Shown in pieces: positions 37,291 to 45,395 of a DNA stretch of 64,000 bases. Both the position numbers and the translations under genes were made by a program. Origin of the DNA: Geoalkalibacter subterraneus (GTDB lineage Bacteria; Desulfobacterota; Desulfuromonadia; Desulfuromonadales; Geoalkalibacteraceae); contig NZ_CP010311.1 in assembly GCF_000827125.1 (NCBI RefSeq), positions 434,001 to 498,000 of the forward strand, read 5' to 3'. Positions within the stretch are counted from its first letter, which is position 1, and each line of letters opens with the position of its first letter. The notes below the pieces were generated by a model. The model made no database searches. It worked only from the letters and a program-made list of their open reading frames with translations, and had not been told where the DNA came from.

Positions 37291-38100
37291 ATGATCCGTT
37301 TGATCGTCAGTGCCGATGACCTTGGGGTCAATCCGGCCCGTAATCATGGGATTCTGGAAGCTTTTACCCACGGGATCGTTACCAGCGCCTCCCTGTTGGC
37401 CAATGGGGAGGCGTTTTGCGAGGCGGTTGACCTTGCCAGAGAAGCACAATTGCCGGTGGGCGTTCATCTTAATCTATCCGAAGGGCTCTCCTTGACTGGA
37501 TATCTCCCGGGGCTGACAGATCAGCAAGGGCGTTTCAGGGGCAAGGAGGGGTTGCGCGACTGTCTGAAGCGGGGCGCCTGCCCCATTGATGCAGTTGAGG
37601 CAGAATGGACGTCCCAGATCGAACGGGTCTTTGCCTCAGGTCTTGTCCCCGACCATCTCGACAGTCACCAGCACTGCCATCTTTTCCCGCCACTTTCAAC
37701 TCTTGTGATGGCATTGGCCCAGCGCTTCAGGGTCGGCGCCGTGCGCTGCTCCCGTCCGGCTGAACCCGTCGCGGATGATCCCTGTGGGGTGGTAGGTGAA
37801 GAACTGCGCCTCTATCGCAGGCTCTCCAGGTGCCGGGAACCTGGCCGGATCAAGATGCCGGACGGCCTGTGGGGAATGACGTTGCTGAATCGTCTGGACA
37901 CGGATTCGCTGTGTGGAGTGCTGGAGCGCCTTCCTGAAGGAAGCTGGGAGTTGATGACTCATCCCGGTTATCCCATGGAGGGCGGAAGCGAATTTGAAGG
38001 AGGGGCGCGGCTGGAGGAACTGCATGCGCTGACCTCGGTAGAGGCGCGCGCCGCAGTCGAACGGCGGGGAATCCAGCTATGCAGCTATCGTGAGTTGTGA
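37291..38100 (+). CDS. ChbG/YdjC family carbohydrate deacetylase
   Basis: Metal-dependent deacetylase family acting on N-acetylated sugars (chitooligosaccharides in E. coli ChbG; hopanoid or lipid-linked sugars in others). The metal site is IVSADDLGVNPARNHG near the N-terminus and DHLDSHQHCHLFPP in the middle. A helical C-terminal part follows, with MTHPGYP. The 269-residue length is normal. It starts 14 bases after glmS, so co-transcription with amino-sugar synthesis is likely, but the true substrate is not shown. Confidence 0.85.
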   Translation: MIRLIVSADDLGVNPARNHGILEAFTHGIVTSASLLANGEAFCEAVDLAREAQLPVGVHLNLSEGLSLTGYLPGLTDQQGRFRGKEGLRDCLKRGACPIDAVEAEWTSQIERVFASGLVPDHLDSHQHCHLFPPLSTLVMALAQRFRVGAVRCSRPAEPVADDPCGVVGEELRLYRRLSRCREPGRIKMPDGLWGMTLLNRLDTDSLCGVLERLPEGSWELMTHPGYPMEGGSEFEGGARLEELHALTSVEARAAVERRGIQLCSYREL

Positions 38101-38113
38101 GGACGAACGGTCT

Positions 38114-39190
38114 TCAATCCTGGACCAGGCGCAGCTTGACCGGGGTCTTGTCGCCGTAGATCTGCGTGACATGAGTCTGCATGATCCAGTCAATCCCCTG
38201 GGTGATGCTGTCGACGGTTTGGTTCAAGGGGGCTTCGCCTCCGTCATAGCGGGCTTTGATCTGCTTGCCGTTTTGGTGAAAAACCTTTCCTACTGGATTA
38301 TTCCCCGATCCGACCAGGACCCGGGACTCCTTGGGGGTGCCCGTTACTCTGTATTCGATGGTGCGCGGAGGTGTGTCCGGCAGGGCCTGGATCCGTTTCT
38401 CAACCAGCTGCAATCTTTTCTCGGCCGTTAATTTCAGGTTGCCGGAAAGATTCTGATAGGGCGATCTTTGCGCGGCATGCAGGGCGCGGCGATACCAGTA
38501 GCGGGCCCGGTAGGGATCGGGCCACATTCCGCGGCCGTAGAGGTGATAATCGCCCATAAAGATTGCGGCTTCTGGGTGGCGTCCGGCAGCGAAGGCGGCC
38601 GTGAATTTGTTTGCCGCTTTTCTGTAGTCTCCCGCCAAATGCAATTGATGGCCGAGGGCGAACAGCCCGAATGGGTTGTTGTTGTCAGCCAGGCGTTGAA
38701 AGTAGTCTGCGGCGCTGCCGCCGATATCCTCTTCCTGAAGAAGCCCCTGCCGTATCAGAACTCCCAAATTGTATTGAGTATTTTCGTCCAGATCTTTGCG
38801 CTGCGCCAGCAGGCGCCAGTCAATAACTGCCTGCTTCTCTGAGACAGGCAGAAACCTGCGTGCGTCCTTTCCGGCCTCAGGATAGCTTCTCAGGTAGCGT
38901 TCAGGTAGTTGCGGCAGACTGAGTTCCGCCCGCGCGATCACCGCCGGCATGTGCCCATTGTCAGCCGCGCGGCTGATCATGCCCCAACCGCGCCGCGTCG
39001 CATTTTCGTTTTCTGCGGCGACAACCAGCCCGAGCCCACGGTCGAGTTTCTGGGGGTCGGTGCAGAGCAGGCAGTAGCGGGCGTTAAGCCAGAGGCCGAG
39101 AACCCCGATAAGAACCACAATTGTAATTATGGCCAACTTCGCCCAGAAATGGGTTGTCCCGGAGTCTGCTCGATCCGCCGCAGTGTGCAA
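38114..39190 (-). CDS. Membrane-anchored Sel1/TPR-like repeat protein
   Basis: A 358-residue protein with one N-terminal membrane helix (KLAIITIVVLIGVLGLWL), so the bulk probably lies in the periplasm. Sel1-like repeats occur around residues 140-270 (QYNLGVLIRQGLL, DYFQRLADNNNPFGLFALG and AAIFMGDYHLYGRGMWPDP, each with a conserved tyrosine/glycine pattern). It starts at TTG 39190, with GGAGAG seven bases upstream and ten bases after the 12-haem cytochrome stop. Third gene of the cytochrome operon. It may scaffold or assemble the cytochromes, but that is inference from position. It converges on the ChbG-like gene. Confidence 0.72.
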   Translation of the reverse strand: MHTAADRADSGTTHFWAKLAIITIVVLIGVLGLWLNARYCLLCTDPQKLDRGLGLVVAAENENATRRGWGMISRAADNGHMPAVIARAELSLPQLPERYLRSYPEAGKDARRFLPVSEKQAVIDWRLLAQRKDLDENTQYNLGVLIRQGLLQEEDIGGSAADYFQRLADNNNPFGLFALGHQLHLAGDYRKAANKFTAAFAAGRHPEAAIFMGDYHLYGRGMWPDPYRARYWYRRALHAAQRSPYQNLSGNLKLTAEKRLQLVEKRIQALPDTPPRTIEYRVTGTPKESRVLVGSGNNPVGKVFHQNGKQIKARYDGGEAPLNQTVDSITQGIDWIMQTHVTQIYGDKTPVKLRLVQD

Positions 39191-39200
39191 TTGGTCTCTC

Positions 39201-40037
39201 CTATTCCTGCAGGCTCAGCGTGTGGGCATCGCCGTGGCAGTCATTGCAGCCCTTGAACTCCTTCAGCATCTCGGCGTTGTGCGGACCGGTGCCGTGGCAC
39301 TGTTCGCAGGACGAGATATCGCCGTGCTGCCCGGCATGGCAGAAGACGCAGCTCAGTGCCGCATGCTGCTTGCTTCCCTGTTCCACCTGCTCCACGGCCT
39401 GTCCGTGGCAGGACTGACACAGGCTGTTTTTCACGCCGTTTTCCAGGGTGATGTCAAGGGGCGCATGAGCGGGATGACAGGCGACGCAGCCGGCATTGTC
39501 CCGGTAGGGGGTATGGGGTTCTGCGTGACAGTCGGTGCAGGCCGGGATGGAGCCGTGGCTTGCGTAATGACACTCGGTGCAGTTTAGTGCGGTGTGGGCG
39601 CTCGCCTGTTCCGAAAGAGTTGTCTGAGGTTCGCTGTGGCAGTTGCCGCACTGGTTGGCCAAGCGCTCGACTTCAACCATGCTGGCAACCGGGGCGTGAG
39701 CATTGCGGTGGCAGGAGAGGCAGTCGATGAACGTTTCGCCGTGGGTCAGGCCGTGACACCCCTGACAGCTCGGCATGCGTTCCTCCCAGGTCAGCCCCTG
39801 CTGGAAAGAGTGAAATTTGACATGACACTCCCGGCACTGCAGCTGATGACGCCCGCCCTCATCGCGAATGGTGGTAAAGACGCTTTCGTGACATTTGGCG
39901 CATTCGAGGGTACCCATCTCGGGAACATCCTGCTGGTAGACTCCGGCGCCGGGCGGTTTTTCCGCGGCCGGGGCCAGAGTTGAAAACAGCAGAAACAGCA
40001 GGATGGTGGCGAGTCTCAGGCCCGATAACAATTTCAT
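39201..40037 (-). CDS. Dodecahaem c-type cytochrome (12 CXXCH)
   Basis: A 278-residue secreted cytochrome. A signal peptide (KLLSGLRLATILLFLLFSTL, cleavage near APAAE) precedes 12 CXXCH motifs, the first at CAKCH and the last at CNDCH. Many histidines follow at bis-His spacing (ECHYASHG, ACHPAHAP, FCHAGQHG). Motif order resembles the octahaem module of the giant cytochrome next door. ATG 40037 follows AGGAGGACACTGCA; an upstream in-frame ATG lacks a site. The gap from the giant gene is 78 bases. Likely a periplasmic or outer-surface electron carrier. Confidence 0.92.
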   Translation of the reverse strand: MKLLSGLRLATILLFLLFSTLAPAAEKPPGAGVYQQDVPEMGTLECAKCHESVFTTIRDEGGRHQLQCRECHVKFHSFQQGLTWEERMPSCQGCHGLTHGETFIDCLSCHRNAHAPVASMVEVERLANQCGNCHSEPQTTLSEQASAHTALNCTECHYASHGSIPACTDCHAEPHTPYRDNAGCVACHPAHAPLDITLENGVKNSLCQSCHGQAVEQVEQGSKQHAALSCVFCHAGQHGDISSCEQCHGTGPHNAEMLKEFKGCNDCHGDAHTLSLQE

Positions 40038-40115
40038 TGCAGTGTCCTCCTTTGTCGCAGGGCGCATTCCCCAGGCTTCCGGGCGTCCCTCAACCGCGGT
40101 CTGCGGGGCTCTTGT

Positions 40116-43100
40116 CTACTTGCTCCAGTTGGCCAGATTGTGCGGATCGCGATGACACCGCAGGCAATCAGGGAATTTCTTGTGCAGCCCTGATTCATGG
40201 GGCCAGCCGTGACAGGTGTCGCAGCTGATCGCATTTCCGTGGTCGCCCTGGTGGCATTCCAGGCAGTCAAGTTCGCTGTGCTTCGCCTCGCTTGCCGCCA
40301 GGGTCGCCGTCACTTCGCCATGACAGTTCCGGCAGAATGAACCGGGAATATCGGCCGGCATATAGATCTGCGTCGGGGTGTGGGGTGCATGGCAGTGCAT
40401 GCAGTCTCCCTCACCCATGTCGTCGGTATGGGGCTGGTGGCATTCGGTGCACTGCTGCGCCTGTTTGTGCTGCAGGTGGCAGTTGGCGCAGTCGAGTTCG
40501 GCGTGAAGGGTGGGGACTTTCTCCATGTCCCCTGCCACCGCCGGATGACAGCTCACGCAGGCCTGACGCGTTACGGCGGTTTTGTCCAGTTCCGTCTGCC
40601 GGGGGGCATGGCCGCTATGGCAGTCCCGGCAGTTGTCGACGGCAAAATGAGGATGATCGCCGCTTTTGTGGCAGCGCGTGCAGTCGGCGATGGTTTTCTC
40701 CCCTTTCGGGGGATGCTCCGGATGACAGGAGTAACAGCCGACCGCAGTGCTGTGGGCACCGCCCTGTTGCTCAAGCACGCTGATCGCATCCTGATGGCAG
40801 GATGAACAGAGGGCTGTATCGATACGCCGGTCAAAAGAGATGTTCTGCGGCGCATGGGCATTGTGGCAGGCGCTGCAATCCTGCTGGGTCATCTCCGCAT
40901 CATGGGGAGAGTGGCAGTCGAGACAGGCCTGGGTTCCCGTATGGTCGAAGTGGCACTGATTACAGTCCATCTCGCTGTGGGAGCCTGGGTTGTAGCGCAT
41001 CTGCCGGTCAATCACCTGGTGGCAGGTGGCGCAGGCGGGTCGCACTTCATCCATGGCTGCAAGGTTGATTTCCGCGGGCTCATGCGGTGCGTGGCATGGA
41101 ATGCACGGCTCCAGGGTGTAGTGCTGCTTGTCCAGGCGCGGGTGGCATTCCAGGCAGGGTGCGATTGTCTCCTTGCCTTCCGGAAGATGCTGGGGATGAC
41201 ATGCCGCACAGCCTGCCGCGTCGCGGTGGGGTCCGCCTTTTTCGGTCAAGGTCTGCGCCACGCCCTGATGGCAGGTTGCACAGTGCTGGTCGGAAACCTC
41301 GCCCGTATAGGCGATATCGGTGGGACGATGCGGTTCGTGGCAGTCGCTGCAGTCTTCCGCCGTCATTCCGGGACCGTGGGAGCTGTGACAGCGCAGGCAG
41401 TCGTACCATTGGCTATGGGCAGGATGGCAAACGCTGCAGTCCATCGGACGGTGCGCGCTGTAAAGAGAGGCAAAGGCATCGCCGACCGGACGGTGGCAGG
41501 ACAGGCAGGCCGGGCGTACCGGCTTCAGTGCGGTCAGGTCCATTTCCAGGGGCGTGTGTGGGGAGTGGCAGTCACGGCACCCCTTGACGACAAAGTGTGC
41601 GTTGTCCTGAGGTGCGTGGCAGGTTTTACAATCCTGTGAGGCCGCCATCCCACGCTGAGGATGATCGGCATGGCAGTCGGTGCAGCCCGCGGCAGGATGC
41701 TGCTGGTGGCAGTCAACACATAGCAAAGCATCGCGGTGTGCCGCACCCTGGTTTTTCACCTCCTTGTAGACCTGCTGATGGCAGGCGGCGCACAGGCCTC
41801 CCTGCGGCCCCGAAGCATGATCGATTTCCGTGGGCAGGTGAGCGTCATGGCAGGTTTTGCAATCCTGGGTCGTCATGGTGTTGGCATGAGGATCATGACA
41901 TTCAAGACAGGACAGGATCTCCGTATGACTCTGGTGGCAGGCACCGCAGTTCATTTGTGCGTGCGGGCTCGGCACGATCTGGTTGGGTTTCGCCATGGGA
42001 TCGTCATGGCAGCTCAAACAGGCGTCGTCAGCCTGCGACATCTGGTCCCAGAGCTGGTCGAGAGGCGCGTGGGCCGGATGGCAGCCGCTGCAGTTGGGCA
42101 GTTCGTAATGGGGATTGTCGGCTGCGGCATGACAGTCGGCGCAGGCCGGAATCGCATCCTCTGCCGGGGGGTGGTTCTGGTGACAGTCCGCACAGCTCAT
42201 CCCTTCGCCGTGGCCGCCGCCGAGTTCAGTCAGGGTGGCGTGAATTTCACTATGGCAGGCGGCACAGTGTGCGCCGGCAATATCGCTTTCAAACGCAACG
42301 TTCTCCGGATCATGAGGCCCATGGCACTCCTGGCAGCTGCCCTGGGTCATCTCCTCGGAGTGAGGCTCATGGCAGTCCAGGCAGAGGGGCCGATGCCCGT
42401 GCTGCTGATGGCAGTCATAGCAGGCAATCTCGGAGTGGCTGCCGCTGGACGATACAATCTGCTCCTCGACGCCGGGATGGCAGGTGAAGCAGGCCGGCGA
42501 CAGGTCGGTGGGCGCATCGGCGCTGCGCTCATGAGGCGCGTGGGGCTGGTGGCAGCTGAGGCAGTTATCCAGGGTGAAGTGGGCATTTTTCTCCGGCGTA
42601 TGGCACTGGGTGCAGGCCGTGGGAGTGCTGCCCTCGAGGGGAGGGTGCTGCTGGTGGCAGCGGTAGCAGCCGACCTGCTCCTGGTGAGCGCCGCCTTTCT
42701 GCTCCAGGGTCGTGACAGTTTCCTCGTGACAGGCTGCGCACCAGGATTGGGAGACGCCTGCGAAATAACGGACCGGAACAGGCTTGTGAGCACCGTGACA
42801 GGCCCGGCAATCATCCTCCGTCATGGCGTCGTTATGCGGGCTGTGGCAATCGGTGCAGGCCGGGATCTCGTTATGTTGTGCATGGCAGGTGTTGCAGGCC
42901 ACATTGGCGTGAGCGCCGCCCACAGCGTCCGGTCCCTTTGTGGCCCCGGGATGACAGCTGGCACAGGTTGCACGAACGTCCTTAAAGGAGGAGAAGTCAA
43001 AGTCAAGTGGCGCGTGGGGTGGGTGGCAGCTGCTGCAGTTAGGCAGAGTGTAGTGCTCCGACGCTTCGGGCGAATGGCAGTCGGCACAGGCTGCGATTGT

Positions 43101-44039
43101 ATCCTGGGTCCCCGGGTAGGGGTGGGAGGAATGGCAGTCGGCGCAGGCCAGATTTTTCAGATGAATACTGTTTTTAGGATCGAAACCGGCAAGAGTTTCC
43201 TTGTGACAGGCTGCGCACCAGTCTGCTCGGACCTCATCCCAGGGCTCGGCACTCACCGGGTTGTGGGGCATGTGGCAGGCGCTGCAATCCTGGGCGGTGA
43301 TGGATTTGTCGTGGGTCGGGTGGCAATTGGTGCAGGATGGCGCATCGCTGGAGTGCCTTGAGTGGCAGGTTGTGCATGCCACATTGACATGGCTCCCACC
43401 GACGGAGGCGGGTCCCTGCCCTGCGGCGATATCCTCGTGGCAGCTCAGGCAGACGTCTCTGGCTCCTCTAAGGCTTGAGAATTGGAAAGCTGTTGGCTGA
43501 TGCGGCGGGTGACAGCCGGCGCAATCAGAGAGGGCGTAGTGAGCGGAATCCTGCGGGGCGTGGCATTCGGCGCAGCCCAGAGCATCACCATGAGTCAGAT
43601 GGCAGGTGTTGCAGTCGAGTTCGGAGTGGGCGTCGCGAGCTTTTTTCGCAGTTGCCGCGACATCCGGATGGCAGGTCGAACAGGCCTTGCGGGCATCGGT
43701 CAGGGCGGAGAATTCGAGATCGAGCGGGGCATGGGGCGAATGACAGCCGGTGCACTGGGGCAGCGCATAGTGGTTCTCACCTGCGGGATCATGGCACGCA
43801 CTGCAGGGTGCGATTTCGGTTTCGGCCCCTTTCTGGGGATGAACCCAGTGACAGTTGTCACAGCTGATGAATTCGCCGTGAGCGCCGCCCTTCTGGGCAA
43901 CCTCTCTGGTCTCGTCCGCATGGCATTTGGCGCAGTCCTCGAACATGCGCCCGGATGCGCTCTGTTGCGCCGCCCCGGTTGAGAAGCAAAGAAGCAATCC
44001 GACAGAAACCGTAACTAAGACCCAGCCCCAATTTTTCAT
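40116..44039 (-). CDS. Giant multihaem c-type cytochrome with 65 CXXCH motifs
   Basis: The 1307-residue protein begins with a signal peptide (WVLVTVSVGLLLCFSTGAAQ), and 65 CXXCH haem-binding motifs fill nearly its entire length, by my count from CAKCH to CLRCH, one haem per 20 residues. The motifs recur in an eight-haem module with constant landmarks (GGAH, HP, PHAP, GSH, PH and DCxxCH). Six complete modules, two shorter ones at the N-terminus and a partial one at the end are visible. There is no membrane anchor apart from the signal. It is first in a minus-strand operon with a 12-haem cytochrome. The gene start at 44039 has GAGGAGG. A role in long-range electron transport is inferred. Confidence 0.93.
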   Translation of the reverse strand: MKNWGWVLVTVSVGLLLCFSTGAAQQSASGRMFEDCAKCHADETREVAQKGGAHGEFISCDNCHWVHPQKGAETEIAPCSACHDPAGENHYALPQCTGCHSPHAPLDLEFSALTDARKACSTCHPDVAATAKKARDAHSELDCNTCHLTHGDALGCAECHAPQDSAHYALSDCAGCHPPHQPTAFQFSSLRGARDVCLSCHEDIAAGQGPASVGGSHVNVACTTCHSRHSSDAPSCTNCHPTHDKSITAQDCSACHMPHNPVSAEPWDEVRADWCAACHKETLAGFDPKNSIHLKNLACADCHSSHPYPGTQDTIAACADCHSPEASEHYTLPNCSSCHPPHAPLDFDFSSFKDVRATCASCHPGATKGPDAVGGAHANVACNTCHAQHNEIPACTDCHSPHNDAMTEDDCRACHGAHKPVPVRYFAGVSQSWCAACHEETVTTLEQKGGAHQEQVGCYRCHQQHPPLEGSTPTACTQCHTPEKNAHFTLDNCLSCHQPHAPHERSADAPTDLSPACFTCHPGVEEQIVSSSGSHSEIACYDCHQQHGHRPLCLDCHEPHSEEMTQGSCQECHGPHDPENVAFESDIAGAHCAACHSEIHATLTELGGGHGEGMSCADCHQNHPPAEDAIPACADCHAAADNPHYELPNCSGCHPAHAPLDQLWDQMSQADDACLSCHDDPMAKPNQIVPSPHAQMNCGACHQSHTEILSCLECHDPHANTMTTQDCKTCHDAHLPTEIDHASGPQGGLCAACHQQVYKEVKNQGAAHRDALLCVDCHQQHPAAGCTDCHADHPQRGMAASQDCKTCHAPQDNAHFVVKGCRDCHSPHTPLEMDLTALKPVRPACLSCHRPVGDAFASLYSAHRPMDCSVCHPAHSQWYDCLRCHSSHGPGMTAEDCSDCHEPHRPTDIAYTGEVSDQHCATCHQGVAQTLTEKGGPHRDAAGCAACHPQHLPEGKETIAPCLECHPRLDKQHYTLEPCIPCHAPHEPAEINLAAMDEVRPACATCHQVIDRQMRYNPGSHSEMDCNQCHFDHTGTQACLDCHSPHDAEMTQQDCSACHNAHAPQNISFDRRIDTALCSSCHQDAISVLEQQGGAHSTAVGCYSCHPEHPPKGEKTIADCTRCHKSGDHPHFAVDNCRDCHSGHAPRQTELDKTAVTRQACVSCHPAVAGDMEKVPTLHAELDCANCHLQHKQAQQCTECHQPHTDDMGEGDCMHCHAPHTPTQIYMPADIPGSFCRNCHGEVTATLAASEAKHSELDCLECHQGDHGNAISCDTCHGWPHESGLHKKFPDCLRCHRDPHNLANWSK

Positions 44040-44390
44040 TTGACCTCCTCGAGGCCGCAGTGGCAGTCTGCGACCCATCCCGAAAAACATCTCATCACCT
44101 CCATGCTCCGATAAGAGCTGACCCCATGCGGGCGGAGGCGCAAAAATTCTCAACTTTCAGTTCAACACAGCGGCTTTGCAAGCCTTGAAACTCGGCCGGC
44201 TTGCCGACACGATAGCGTTTACATACCACGGAAAGTCGGTGTAATGAAAGTCTTTTGGTTCTTTCAGCGATGCTATGCATGCCCCCGCAGGGTGCTGCAG
44301 GAAATGTAAACGATTGGTACTTCAGCTTATCGGCTGCAGGGCCGGATGTCCAGTGCCGTGCCGGTCTCGGCGGTTTTTTGGAGCAAAAAG
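44040..44390. other. Intergenic region: leader of the cytochrome operon and of the glycosyltransferase
   Basis: 351 bases with no credible protein gene. On the minus strand a nested stem (GGCAAGCC with GGCTTGC; 44178-44204) is followed by GCAAAGCC, ending about 140 bases before the giant cytochrome gene. The strings faintly recall the GEMM (cyclic di-GMP) riboswitch core, but its GNRA-capped stem is not visible. No clear sigma-70 promoter was found in either direction. Confidence 0.35.
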
Positions 44391-45395
44391 GTGCAGATTC
44401 TTCTTGTTGTCCCCAGCCAGGACCCGGCGACCGGCAACTGGGTCACCGCCCACCGGTTCAGGGATGGACTTGAGTCCCGCGGCCACAAGGTTTCTTTCGT
44501 GGAGGTTGCCCTCGACAGTGCAGATTTCGGCAGTCTGAGGAAGGCGGCGCGTCAAGCCGACGCCGCACTTCTGCTGCATGCCTATCGATCCGGGCGCCCC
44601 TGGCTTGAAGCCGGCCTTGCCGAAACTCTCCCCTTTGGCGTGCTGATGACCGGAACCGACATCAATTTCGGCATGGATGATTCGGCCCAGGCCGCAGTTA
44701 TCGACCAGGTCCTGCAGCGGGCCGCGGCGATATTCATTCAGAGCCGTCAGGCTGTTGGCGCCCTGGAGAAGAGAGCTCCCCGTCTGATTGGGCGCCTGCG
44801 TTACCTTGCACCAGGGGTCAGTCTCGGGCACAGCACCTATGACCTTCGGCAAAAGCAGGGGGTTGGGGCGGACGAAGTGGTTTTTCTATGCCCGGCGGGG
44901 ATTCGTCCGGTCAAAGGAGTGCTTGGGCTGCTGGGGCTTTTTGATCGGGTGGCAAGCTGCCGCAGAGGATTCCGGGTGCTGTTCTGCGGGCCGGTGCTGG
45001 CGCGCGGCTACGCTCGGCGGTTTGAAGCGGCCCTGGCGCATCGCCCGTGGGCCCGATATCTGGGAGTGATCCCTCCCGAGGCGATGGCGGCCGCGATGCG
45101 GGGTGCGGATGTCGTTTTGAACAACTCGCGCGCTGAAGGGTTGTCCAATGCGCTGATGGAAGCGGCGGCGCTCGGGGTCCCCATTCTGGCCCGCGACATC
45201 GAAGGAAACGCCGATGTCGTCGTCCCCGGCTGCAACGGCTTGCTTTATGGCGATGTGAAGAGTTTCTGTCACCATTCTCTCGAATTGATCGATTCTCCCG
45301 AGCTGCGTCGTCGTCTCTCTCGTCCTTCCTCCGTCCCATTGACGGAGCGCAGTGCCGAAATCGACGGCCTGGAGGCCTTCTTTAGGAGCCTCTGA
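44391..45395 (+). CDS. Glycosyltransferase family 4-type protein
   Basis: A 334-residue GT-B glycosyltransferase, probably acting on surface polysaccharide. The N-terminal domain begins VQILLVVPSQDPATGNW. The C-terminal nucleotide-sugar domain holds FLCPAGIRPVKGVLGLLGLF and the typical ADVVLNNSRAEGLSNALMEA, followed by AALGVPILARDIEGNAD, with the EGLSNALMEA helix as in GT4 enzymes. The GTG start at 44391 has GGAG seven bases upstream; in-frame ATG/TTG codons further upstream lack a site. Donor and acceptor are unknown. It stands alone, divergent from the cytochromes. Confidence 0.82.
   Translation: MQILLVVPSQDPATGNWVTAHRFRDGLESRGHKVSFVEVALDSADFGSLRKAARQADAALLLHAYRSGRPWLEAGLAETLPFGVLMTGTDINFGMDDSAQAAVIDQVLQRAAAIFIQSRQAVGALEKRAPRLIGRLRYLAPGVSLGHSTYDLRQKQGVGADEVVFLCPAGIRPVKGVLGLLGLFDRVASCRRGFRVLFCGPVLARGYARRFEAALAHRPWARYLGVIPPEAMAAAMRGADVVLNNSRAEGLSNALMEAAALGVPILARDIEGNADVVVPGCNGLLYGDVKSFCHHSLELIDSPELRRRLSRPSSVPLTERSAEIDGLEAFFRSL

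Follow-up and report, generated by a model that had tools for sequence, protein, structure and literature searches.

The window analysed here is a 64,000-nucleotide stretch of the genome of Geoalkalibacter subterraneus Red1T (contig NZ_CP010311.1, positions 434,001 to 498,000; coordinates below count from its first letter), a metal-reducing haloalkaliphile from a group that respires metals and electrodes (PMC4357744). On its minus strand lies the gene for a giant c-type cytochrome of 1307 amino acids with 65 CXXCH haem-binding motifs (40116..44039; open reading frame and Pfam), followed by the genes for a 12-haem cytochrome and a Sel1-like-repeat protein. The frame of the giant runs from an ATG at 44039 to a stop at 40116 and stays open 5' to a TTG that would give 1345 residues; the ATG was chosen because it is preceded by a ribosome-binding site, AGGAGG (44044..44049, minus strand, read from the sequence), and opens a likely Sec signal peptide of about 24 residues (43968..44039, minus strand). 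This signal peptide was assigned by eye, without a predictor, and the same inspection revealed neither a lipobox nor a second membrane anchor, in agreement with an earlier note on this DNA that had described a secreted protein with no anchor past the signal peptide. The 65 motifs that it had counted in 1307 residues were found again in the site count that it had proposed (65 CXXCH, no CXXXCH and no CXXXXCH), compared with a mean of 1.4 and a maximum of 6 CXXCH in 2000 shuffled versions of the mature protein, and its one haem per 20 residues corresponds to a measured 19.6 (19.4-19.6 across 11 giants of the family described below). The lone cysteine outside the motifs, at position 18, falls inside the signal peptide, and the protein is acidic, with a calculated pI of 5.7 and, with its haems, a calculated mass of about 178 kDa. 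Among stop-to-stop frames of at least 60 residues in the window, only the giant and the adjacent 12-motif frame contain two or more CXXCH motifs.

The host genome (3,717,645 bp in two contigs, the first of 3,475,523 bp) was sequenced with PacBio at 250x, polished with Illumina reads and finished (PMC4357744). Repeat collapse is no live worry for the giant because the longest near-identical DNA repeat listed within the gene spans only 28 nt, at 96% identity, and the giant is unbroken, in a single frame, in 11 of the 12 genomes that carry it, its own included. The false joining of smaller genes, which the earlier note had raised as a danger, is ruled out by the sequencing, the relatives and the lack of long repeats; the 65-haem gene is real. 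A scan of the interval 37900-44500 gave no sigma-70-like promoter where 1.6 were expected, and its nine terminator-like patterns, compared with 5.7 in shuffled sequence, are uninformative.

The motifs of the giant follow a regular plan, in which the gaps between successive motifs alternate in two tetrahaem patterns, A (24, 18, 17, 24) and B (23, 13, 16, 23), which together make an octahaem period of about 158 residues. The whole protein consists of 16 tetrahaem modules in the order ABBABABAB-A5-BABABB, where A5 holds one extra haem. The first nine modules (ABBABABAB) form a variable N-terminal part with 36 haems (41793..43934), to which 20-48 haems correspond in the seven relatives compared; the rest is a constant C-terminal part with 29 haems (40116..41792), which opens with the five-haem module, recognised by its motif spacing (41508..41792; gaps 24, 12, 18, 17), and closes with a 12-haem domain (40119..40832), all on the minus strand. 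A further histidine is present in each of the 65 haem intervals, mostly at fixed offsets (+14, +3, +7, +3 in module A; +14, +3, +3, +3 in module B), so that bis-histidine coordination of nearly every haem is likely. The same holds for 713 of 714 intervals over 11 of the 12 giants, G056 with its two frames being left out of the histidine and spacing statistics (G, C and L numbers are our handles for genomes, contigs and loci). When the C-terminal ends of five of the 12 giants were aligned, 29 invariant non-motif histidines were found for the 29 haems.

A giant is defined here as a matched frame of more than 1000 residues at E <1e-50. Such frames are carried by at least 12 of the 136 Desulfuromonadales genomes searched, and the homologues of like size that the earlier note had suggested seeking in related genomes were thus found in at least 11 other members of the order, with 49-77 motifs. 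At E <1e-80, all matching genomes among 277 of the class fall in Desulfuromonadales, and the host's own genome is the only match among 395 genomes drawn from the phylum; five other genomes of the host's own family yielded no match at E <1e-50, and a plasmid search returned two remote records at 22-25% identity. The giants contain 49, 53, 57, 57, 57, 65, 72, 73, 77, 77 and 77 motifs and, in G056, 54 + 16, so that the motif count is of the form 4n+1 in 10 of the 12, the exceptions being G121 (72) and the broken G056. In the module comparison, which covered eight of the 12 giants, the last 29 haems were constant in all eight, preceded by 20, 24, 28, 36, 43, 44, 48 and 48 haems; the variation in length is N-terminal and mostly proceeds in steps of four haems. 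Module by module, the window giant matches the 53-haem giant of G024 in strict order from the fourth module onward and is therefore the longer one by three N-terminal modules. The order is less clear with the other six giants, whose best-matching modules are scattered, the module letters of G121 being out of register. The 72-motif giant of G121 (L083 6182-10693) is one haem below 4n+1, two modules before the constant part, and the G056 homologue (L025 3244-7457), on a draft metagenome contig, consists of two overlapping frames with 54 and 16 motifs. Weaker matches at G020:C51:1601-4381, G051:C1:1306338-1309400 and G012:C21:4848-7511 have open frames of about 1095-1105 residues and possibly represent another type of large cytochrome. 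The earlier note's view that the giant lies far above ordinary cytochromes in haem number is borne out, without its being a size record, since relatives have 73-77 motifs and cytochromes with 69 and 86 are in print (PMC4914508, PMC12133095; here and below, papers other than PMC4357744 are drawn on from portions of their text).

The giant matches the Pfam families Cytochrom_c3_2 (PF14537) at 191.1 bits (cut-off 25) and PF14522 at 136.4 bits (cut-off 24.8). In alignment A3, which holds 86 of the 89 prepared sequence windows (three of L050 were left out), the nearest curated models are of the decahaem DmsE/MtrA type in 86 of 86 sequence windows and of the tetrahaem CctA/STC type in 79 of 86. The top match in the PDB by profile is chain A of 6r2q, labelled cystathionine beta-synthase in the table, which we take to be MtrA. 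The entry 6R2Q is the Shewanella Mtr complex (PMC12133095). A model of the C-terminal 12-haem domain, helped by 85 related sequence windows, reached a mean pLDDT of 89.5 and a pTM of 0.74, and in a VIA-align comparison of this model 9 of 20 chains gave Z >=2, two larger multihaem proteins among them standing at Z 2.8. A search of the host genome for PF11854, the MtrB barrel, produced no match, nor did any of 14 control genomes reach the cut-off.

The gene directly after the giant (39201..40037, minus strand) encodes a secreted 12-haem cytochrome of 278 residues (288 with an alternative ATG at 40067; our family scans took 39201-40034, one codon short), and a 12-haem gene follows the giant directly in 12 of 12 cases. 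Ten base pairs past its stop begins the gene for the Sel1-like-repeat protein (38114..39190, minus strand; 358 residues, TTG start), which has one likely N-terminal membrane helix, judged by eye, and a Sel1 domain score of 28.6 bits, below the cut-off of 30.7. Just past the helix lies the CXXC motif CLLC (39062..39073, minus strand), and a CXXC occupies this place in 16 of 16 aligned Sel1-like proteins. A contig scan with this protein revealed no relative; a genome search did find relatives. In 5 of the 10 giants with enough downstream DNA (the host's own, G024, G030, G049 and G056; G120 and G113 were excluded as their contigs end too early), the Sel1-like gene comes next. It is also next in all 14 complete copies of a cassette in which genes for a 12-haem, a 20-haem and another 12-haem protein follow one another (hereafter 12-20-12), found in Desulfuromonadales and in metagenome-assembled genomes (MAGs) named Desulfobulbaceae, Desulfobacteraceae or Deltaproteobacteria.

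A phylogenetic tree of 58 rows, with 9 of the 12 giants and 10 of the 14 complete cassettes and rooted at its midpoint, joins the 12-haem partners of the giants to the products of the third cassette genes (100/100) and the C-terminal ends of the giants to the 20-haem proteins (97/94). The giant C-terminal ends do not form one group, that of G049 sitting on the 20-haem side (91/84), and the first 12-haem proteins are held together at only 38/0. The N-terminal ends of the giants are a group of their own (98/94) on long branches, and their fork with the first 12-haem proteins is open. Because of this placement (under the midpoint root), the giant gene evidently occupies the place of the 20-haem gene in the 12-20-12 cassette, and the two would most simply be related by gain or loss of modules, in a direction left unrooted; the tree neither supports nor excludes that the upstream 12-haem gene was fused into the N-terminal end of the giant. 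In 4 of the 14 cassettes (L026, L027, L042, L045), the next genes encode a likely outer-membrane barrel, recognised by eye and without a Pfam match, a 10-haem cytochrome and a 13-haem lipoprotein cytochrome (for example, L027 12934-17535); these three genes had no match in the sequenced DNA around the other cassettes. A relative of the barrel at 56% identity is encoded elsewhere in the host genome, outside the window (G000:C1:729248-730447).

We consider it probable, judging from the sequences, that the exported giant is both a wire and an electron reservoir for extracellular respiration, with its bis-histidine haems arranged in one continuous chain. Sixteen tetrahaem modules in line would pack 65 haems into a single chain, and its continuity is the simplest expectation because the spacing of the modules is the same throughout. 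In MtrA, the haem chain of STC superposes on haems A2-A5 and on haems A6-A9 (PMC7198977), and because of this precedent tandem STC-like units could give one chain here as well. Electrons might enter this stretched analogue of MtrA at one end or along its side and hop from haem to haem, and the chain would also hold up to 65 of them; electron storage, to which the earlier note had pointed, is possible. The distance from haem A1 to A10 in MtrA is 80 A (PMC7198977), and eight haems of OmcZ cover 58.1 A (PMC9473688). By simple arithmetic, 65 haems in extended form would reach about 57 nm at the MtrA step and about 47 nm at the OmcZ step, which falls well short of the micrometre-scale span once proposed for this protein, as a micrometre would take about 20 molecules end to end. 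A single molecule could cross the Gram-negative envelope and more. The signal peptide leads to the periplasm, export beyond it being possible, and the giant probably acts within the envelope or on the surface of the cell.

The 12-haem cytochrome would be the exchange partner of the giant in such a scheme, and the membrane-anchored Sel1-like protein may tether the giant or help to mature it; conceivably, its CXXC keeps the cysteines of the apoprotein reduced or tethers the complex. Since the 29-haem part is constant, specific docking at the C-terminal end is suggested, and the drift of the N-terminal part suggests that its exact length is not decisive, as would suit a flexible wire and reservoir better than a rigid spacer. 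The gene, its motif count, the module rule, the further histidines, the order of the genes and the family are observed directly; we infer transcription as an operon, the coordination of the haems, the continuous chain and its length, the direction of electron flow, the cell location and the roles of the partners. Tentatively, the giant could even work as a nanowire made of one molecule, about 50 nm long and without need of polymerisation, with the constant 29 haems as a docking end, an arm whose length evolution adjusts through gain or loss of entire tetrahaem modules, and the membrane-anchored CXXC protein as a dedicated tether or as the agent that keeps the 130 cysteines ready for haem attachment. 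Expression of high-molecular-weight cytochromes with up to 86 motifs by D. acetexigens on electrodes and on iron oxides (PMC12133095) speaks for the wire and reservoir, as do the barrel and cytochrome genes that come after 4 of the 14 cassettes.

Several observations weigh against a wire and reservoir of this kind. The DmsE/MtrA family model TIGR03508 scores 136.3 bits, below its curated 192.2, and the giant has 65 haems, not ten, so that it is ruled out as a member of that decahaem family; many unrelated multihaem proteins also match the profile that ranked 6r2q first, and much of the resemblance stems from motif content. The 558-residue model of the 29-haem part is poor (pLDDT 54.9, pTM 0.27) and does not give the course of a long chain, Foldseek with the good 12-haem model returned 0 PDB matches, and the best row of the VIA comparison, a small tetrahaem cytochrome, is weak (Z 2.9, rmsd 3.4 over 59 residues), so that these comparisons favour no particular fold. 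The 29 invariant histidines do not fall one per interval, none following the extra haem and two lying in another interval, and in G049 one interval at or near this place is without a histidine; coordination of the extra haem by two histidines may thus not hold in every giant. Furthermore, the CXXC/Sel1 gene was not found next to 5 of the 10 testable giants (G010, G135, G121, G112, G100), the 64-kb window contains no match to the conduit barrel, and the range of 49-77 haems speaks against any fixed distance to be spanned. A literature search, which was loose and hence uninformative, yielded no expression data for the giant gene.

Among the other explanations, it is somewhat unlikely that the giant is a reservoir rather than a wire, that is, a periplasmic capacitor in which size sets capacity and the number of modules drifts. 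The spread of 49-77 haems, mostly in four-haem steps at one end, and the acidic character of the protein fit this possibility, which overlaps with the combined wire and reservoir; the constant C-terminal end with its invariant residues points instead to specific docking. We regard as unlikely that the giants are subunits of an extracellular polymer, joined end to end into long filaments in the manner of OmcS or OmcZ, an arrangement that a wire would not exclude. A freely secreted protein would have just such a signal peptide without lipobox or second anchor, as judged by eye, and the 69-haem cytochrome of D. soudanensis is predicted to be extracellular (PMC4914508). However, the giant alone is already long, and the contacts of a polymer would not show in a sequence. 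The names OmcS, OmcE and OmcZ do not occur among the 47 PDB profile hits, one of which, 28pb, is called simply cytochrome c, but a relation could exist all the same. Enzymes are common among multihaem proteins, and the weak profile and fold matches include an octahaem nitrite reductase; a catalytic reductase with a substrate-binding haem is nevertheless very improbable, as the further histidine in every interval leaves no evident open haem site. An artefact, in which a frameshift or a collapse of repeats had fused smaller genes, might be suspected from the repetitive coding and the split homologue in G056, and has a negligible chance in view of the finished PacBio and Illumina genome, the lack of long near-identical repeats listed and the unbroken giants in 11 of 12 genomes.

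Giant cytochromes, apparently including this one, are already in print (PMC8465243). That paper describes DESUT3_5430 of Desulfuromonas versatilis NIT-T3, with 53 haem sites, as closest to a G. subterraneus protein at 54%, the homologues compared having 55-77 haem sites. We take the 53-haem protein of G024, which is 53.8% identical to the window giant over 1033 amino acids, to be DESUT3_5430, and the cited G. subterraneus protein to be the window giant, because the identities agree and the host genome contains one match below 1e-50. DESUT3_5430 belongs to the same family as the window giant and resembles it in its gene order (giant, 12-haem, Sel1-like); it differs in being 12 haems shorter, which corresponds to three N-terminal modules. 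Two further Desulfuromonadales giants can be likened by description only, namely, DSOUD_0664 of D. soudanensis, whose 69 haems fit 4n+1 (PMC4914508), and the cytochrome of D. acetexigens, whose 86 do not (PMC12133095). The same applies to the giant cytochromes of ANME archaea, which have up to 86 haems and are described as carrying S-layer domains (PMC9012536); a very large number of haems is common to both, whereas the window giant is without an S-layer domain by Pfam. The 20-haem protein of the cassettes can be aligned with the final 20 haems of the giant and has the same neighbours, in contrast having 20 haems, no extra-haem module and a separate upstream 12-haem gene. MtrA/DmsE and STC/CctA have a bis-histidine chain on STC-like units, as the giant probably does, and are its best curated models, at scores below cut-off, but have 10 and 4 haems, respectively, as opposed to 65, and MtrA sits in the MtrB barrel. 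Neither the 4n+1 rule nor the constant end of 29 haems, the spacing of the histidines or the CXXC cassette was met with in a narrow search of the open-access literature, supplements unread.

Polymers of small cytochromes are the usual explanation for electron flow over long distances in biology; the family described here would put a chain of 49-77 haems in one polypeptide, under a simple length rule. The natural length variants in cultured relatives, with 53 and 65 haems, make the relation of haem number to storage or conduction directly testable, and the conserved partner genes point to where the giants act and how they are matured.

Related arrangements occur elsewhere in the host genome. 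At L030 4817-12307 (G000:C1, about 1594816-1602306), frames with 26, 16 and 12 haems are found; after the 12-haem frame comes a further Sel1-repeat protein, which matches the cassette profile at E 2.3e-13 and whose signal-like N-terminus is not directly succeeded by a CXXC. At L029 5227-7058 lie two tandem 12-haem frames, paralogues of the 12-haem domain of the giant. An 18-haem frame in an Armatimonadetes MAG (L055 12130-13656), in which gaps of about 29 and 9 alternate, is a different type of repeat.

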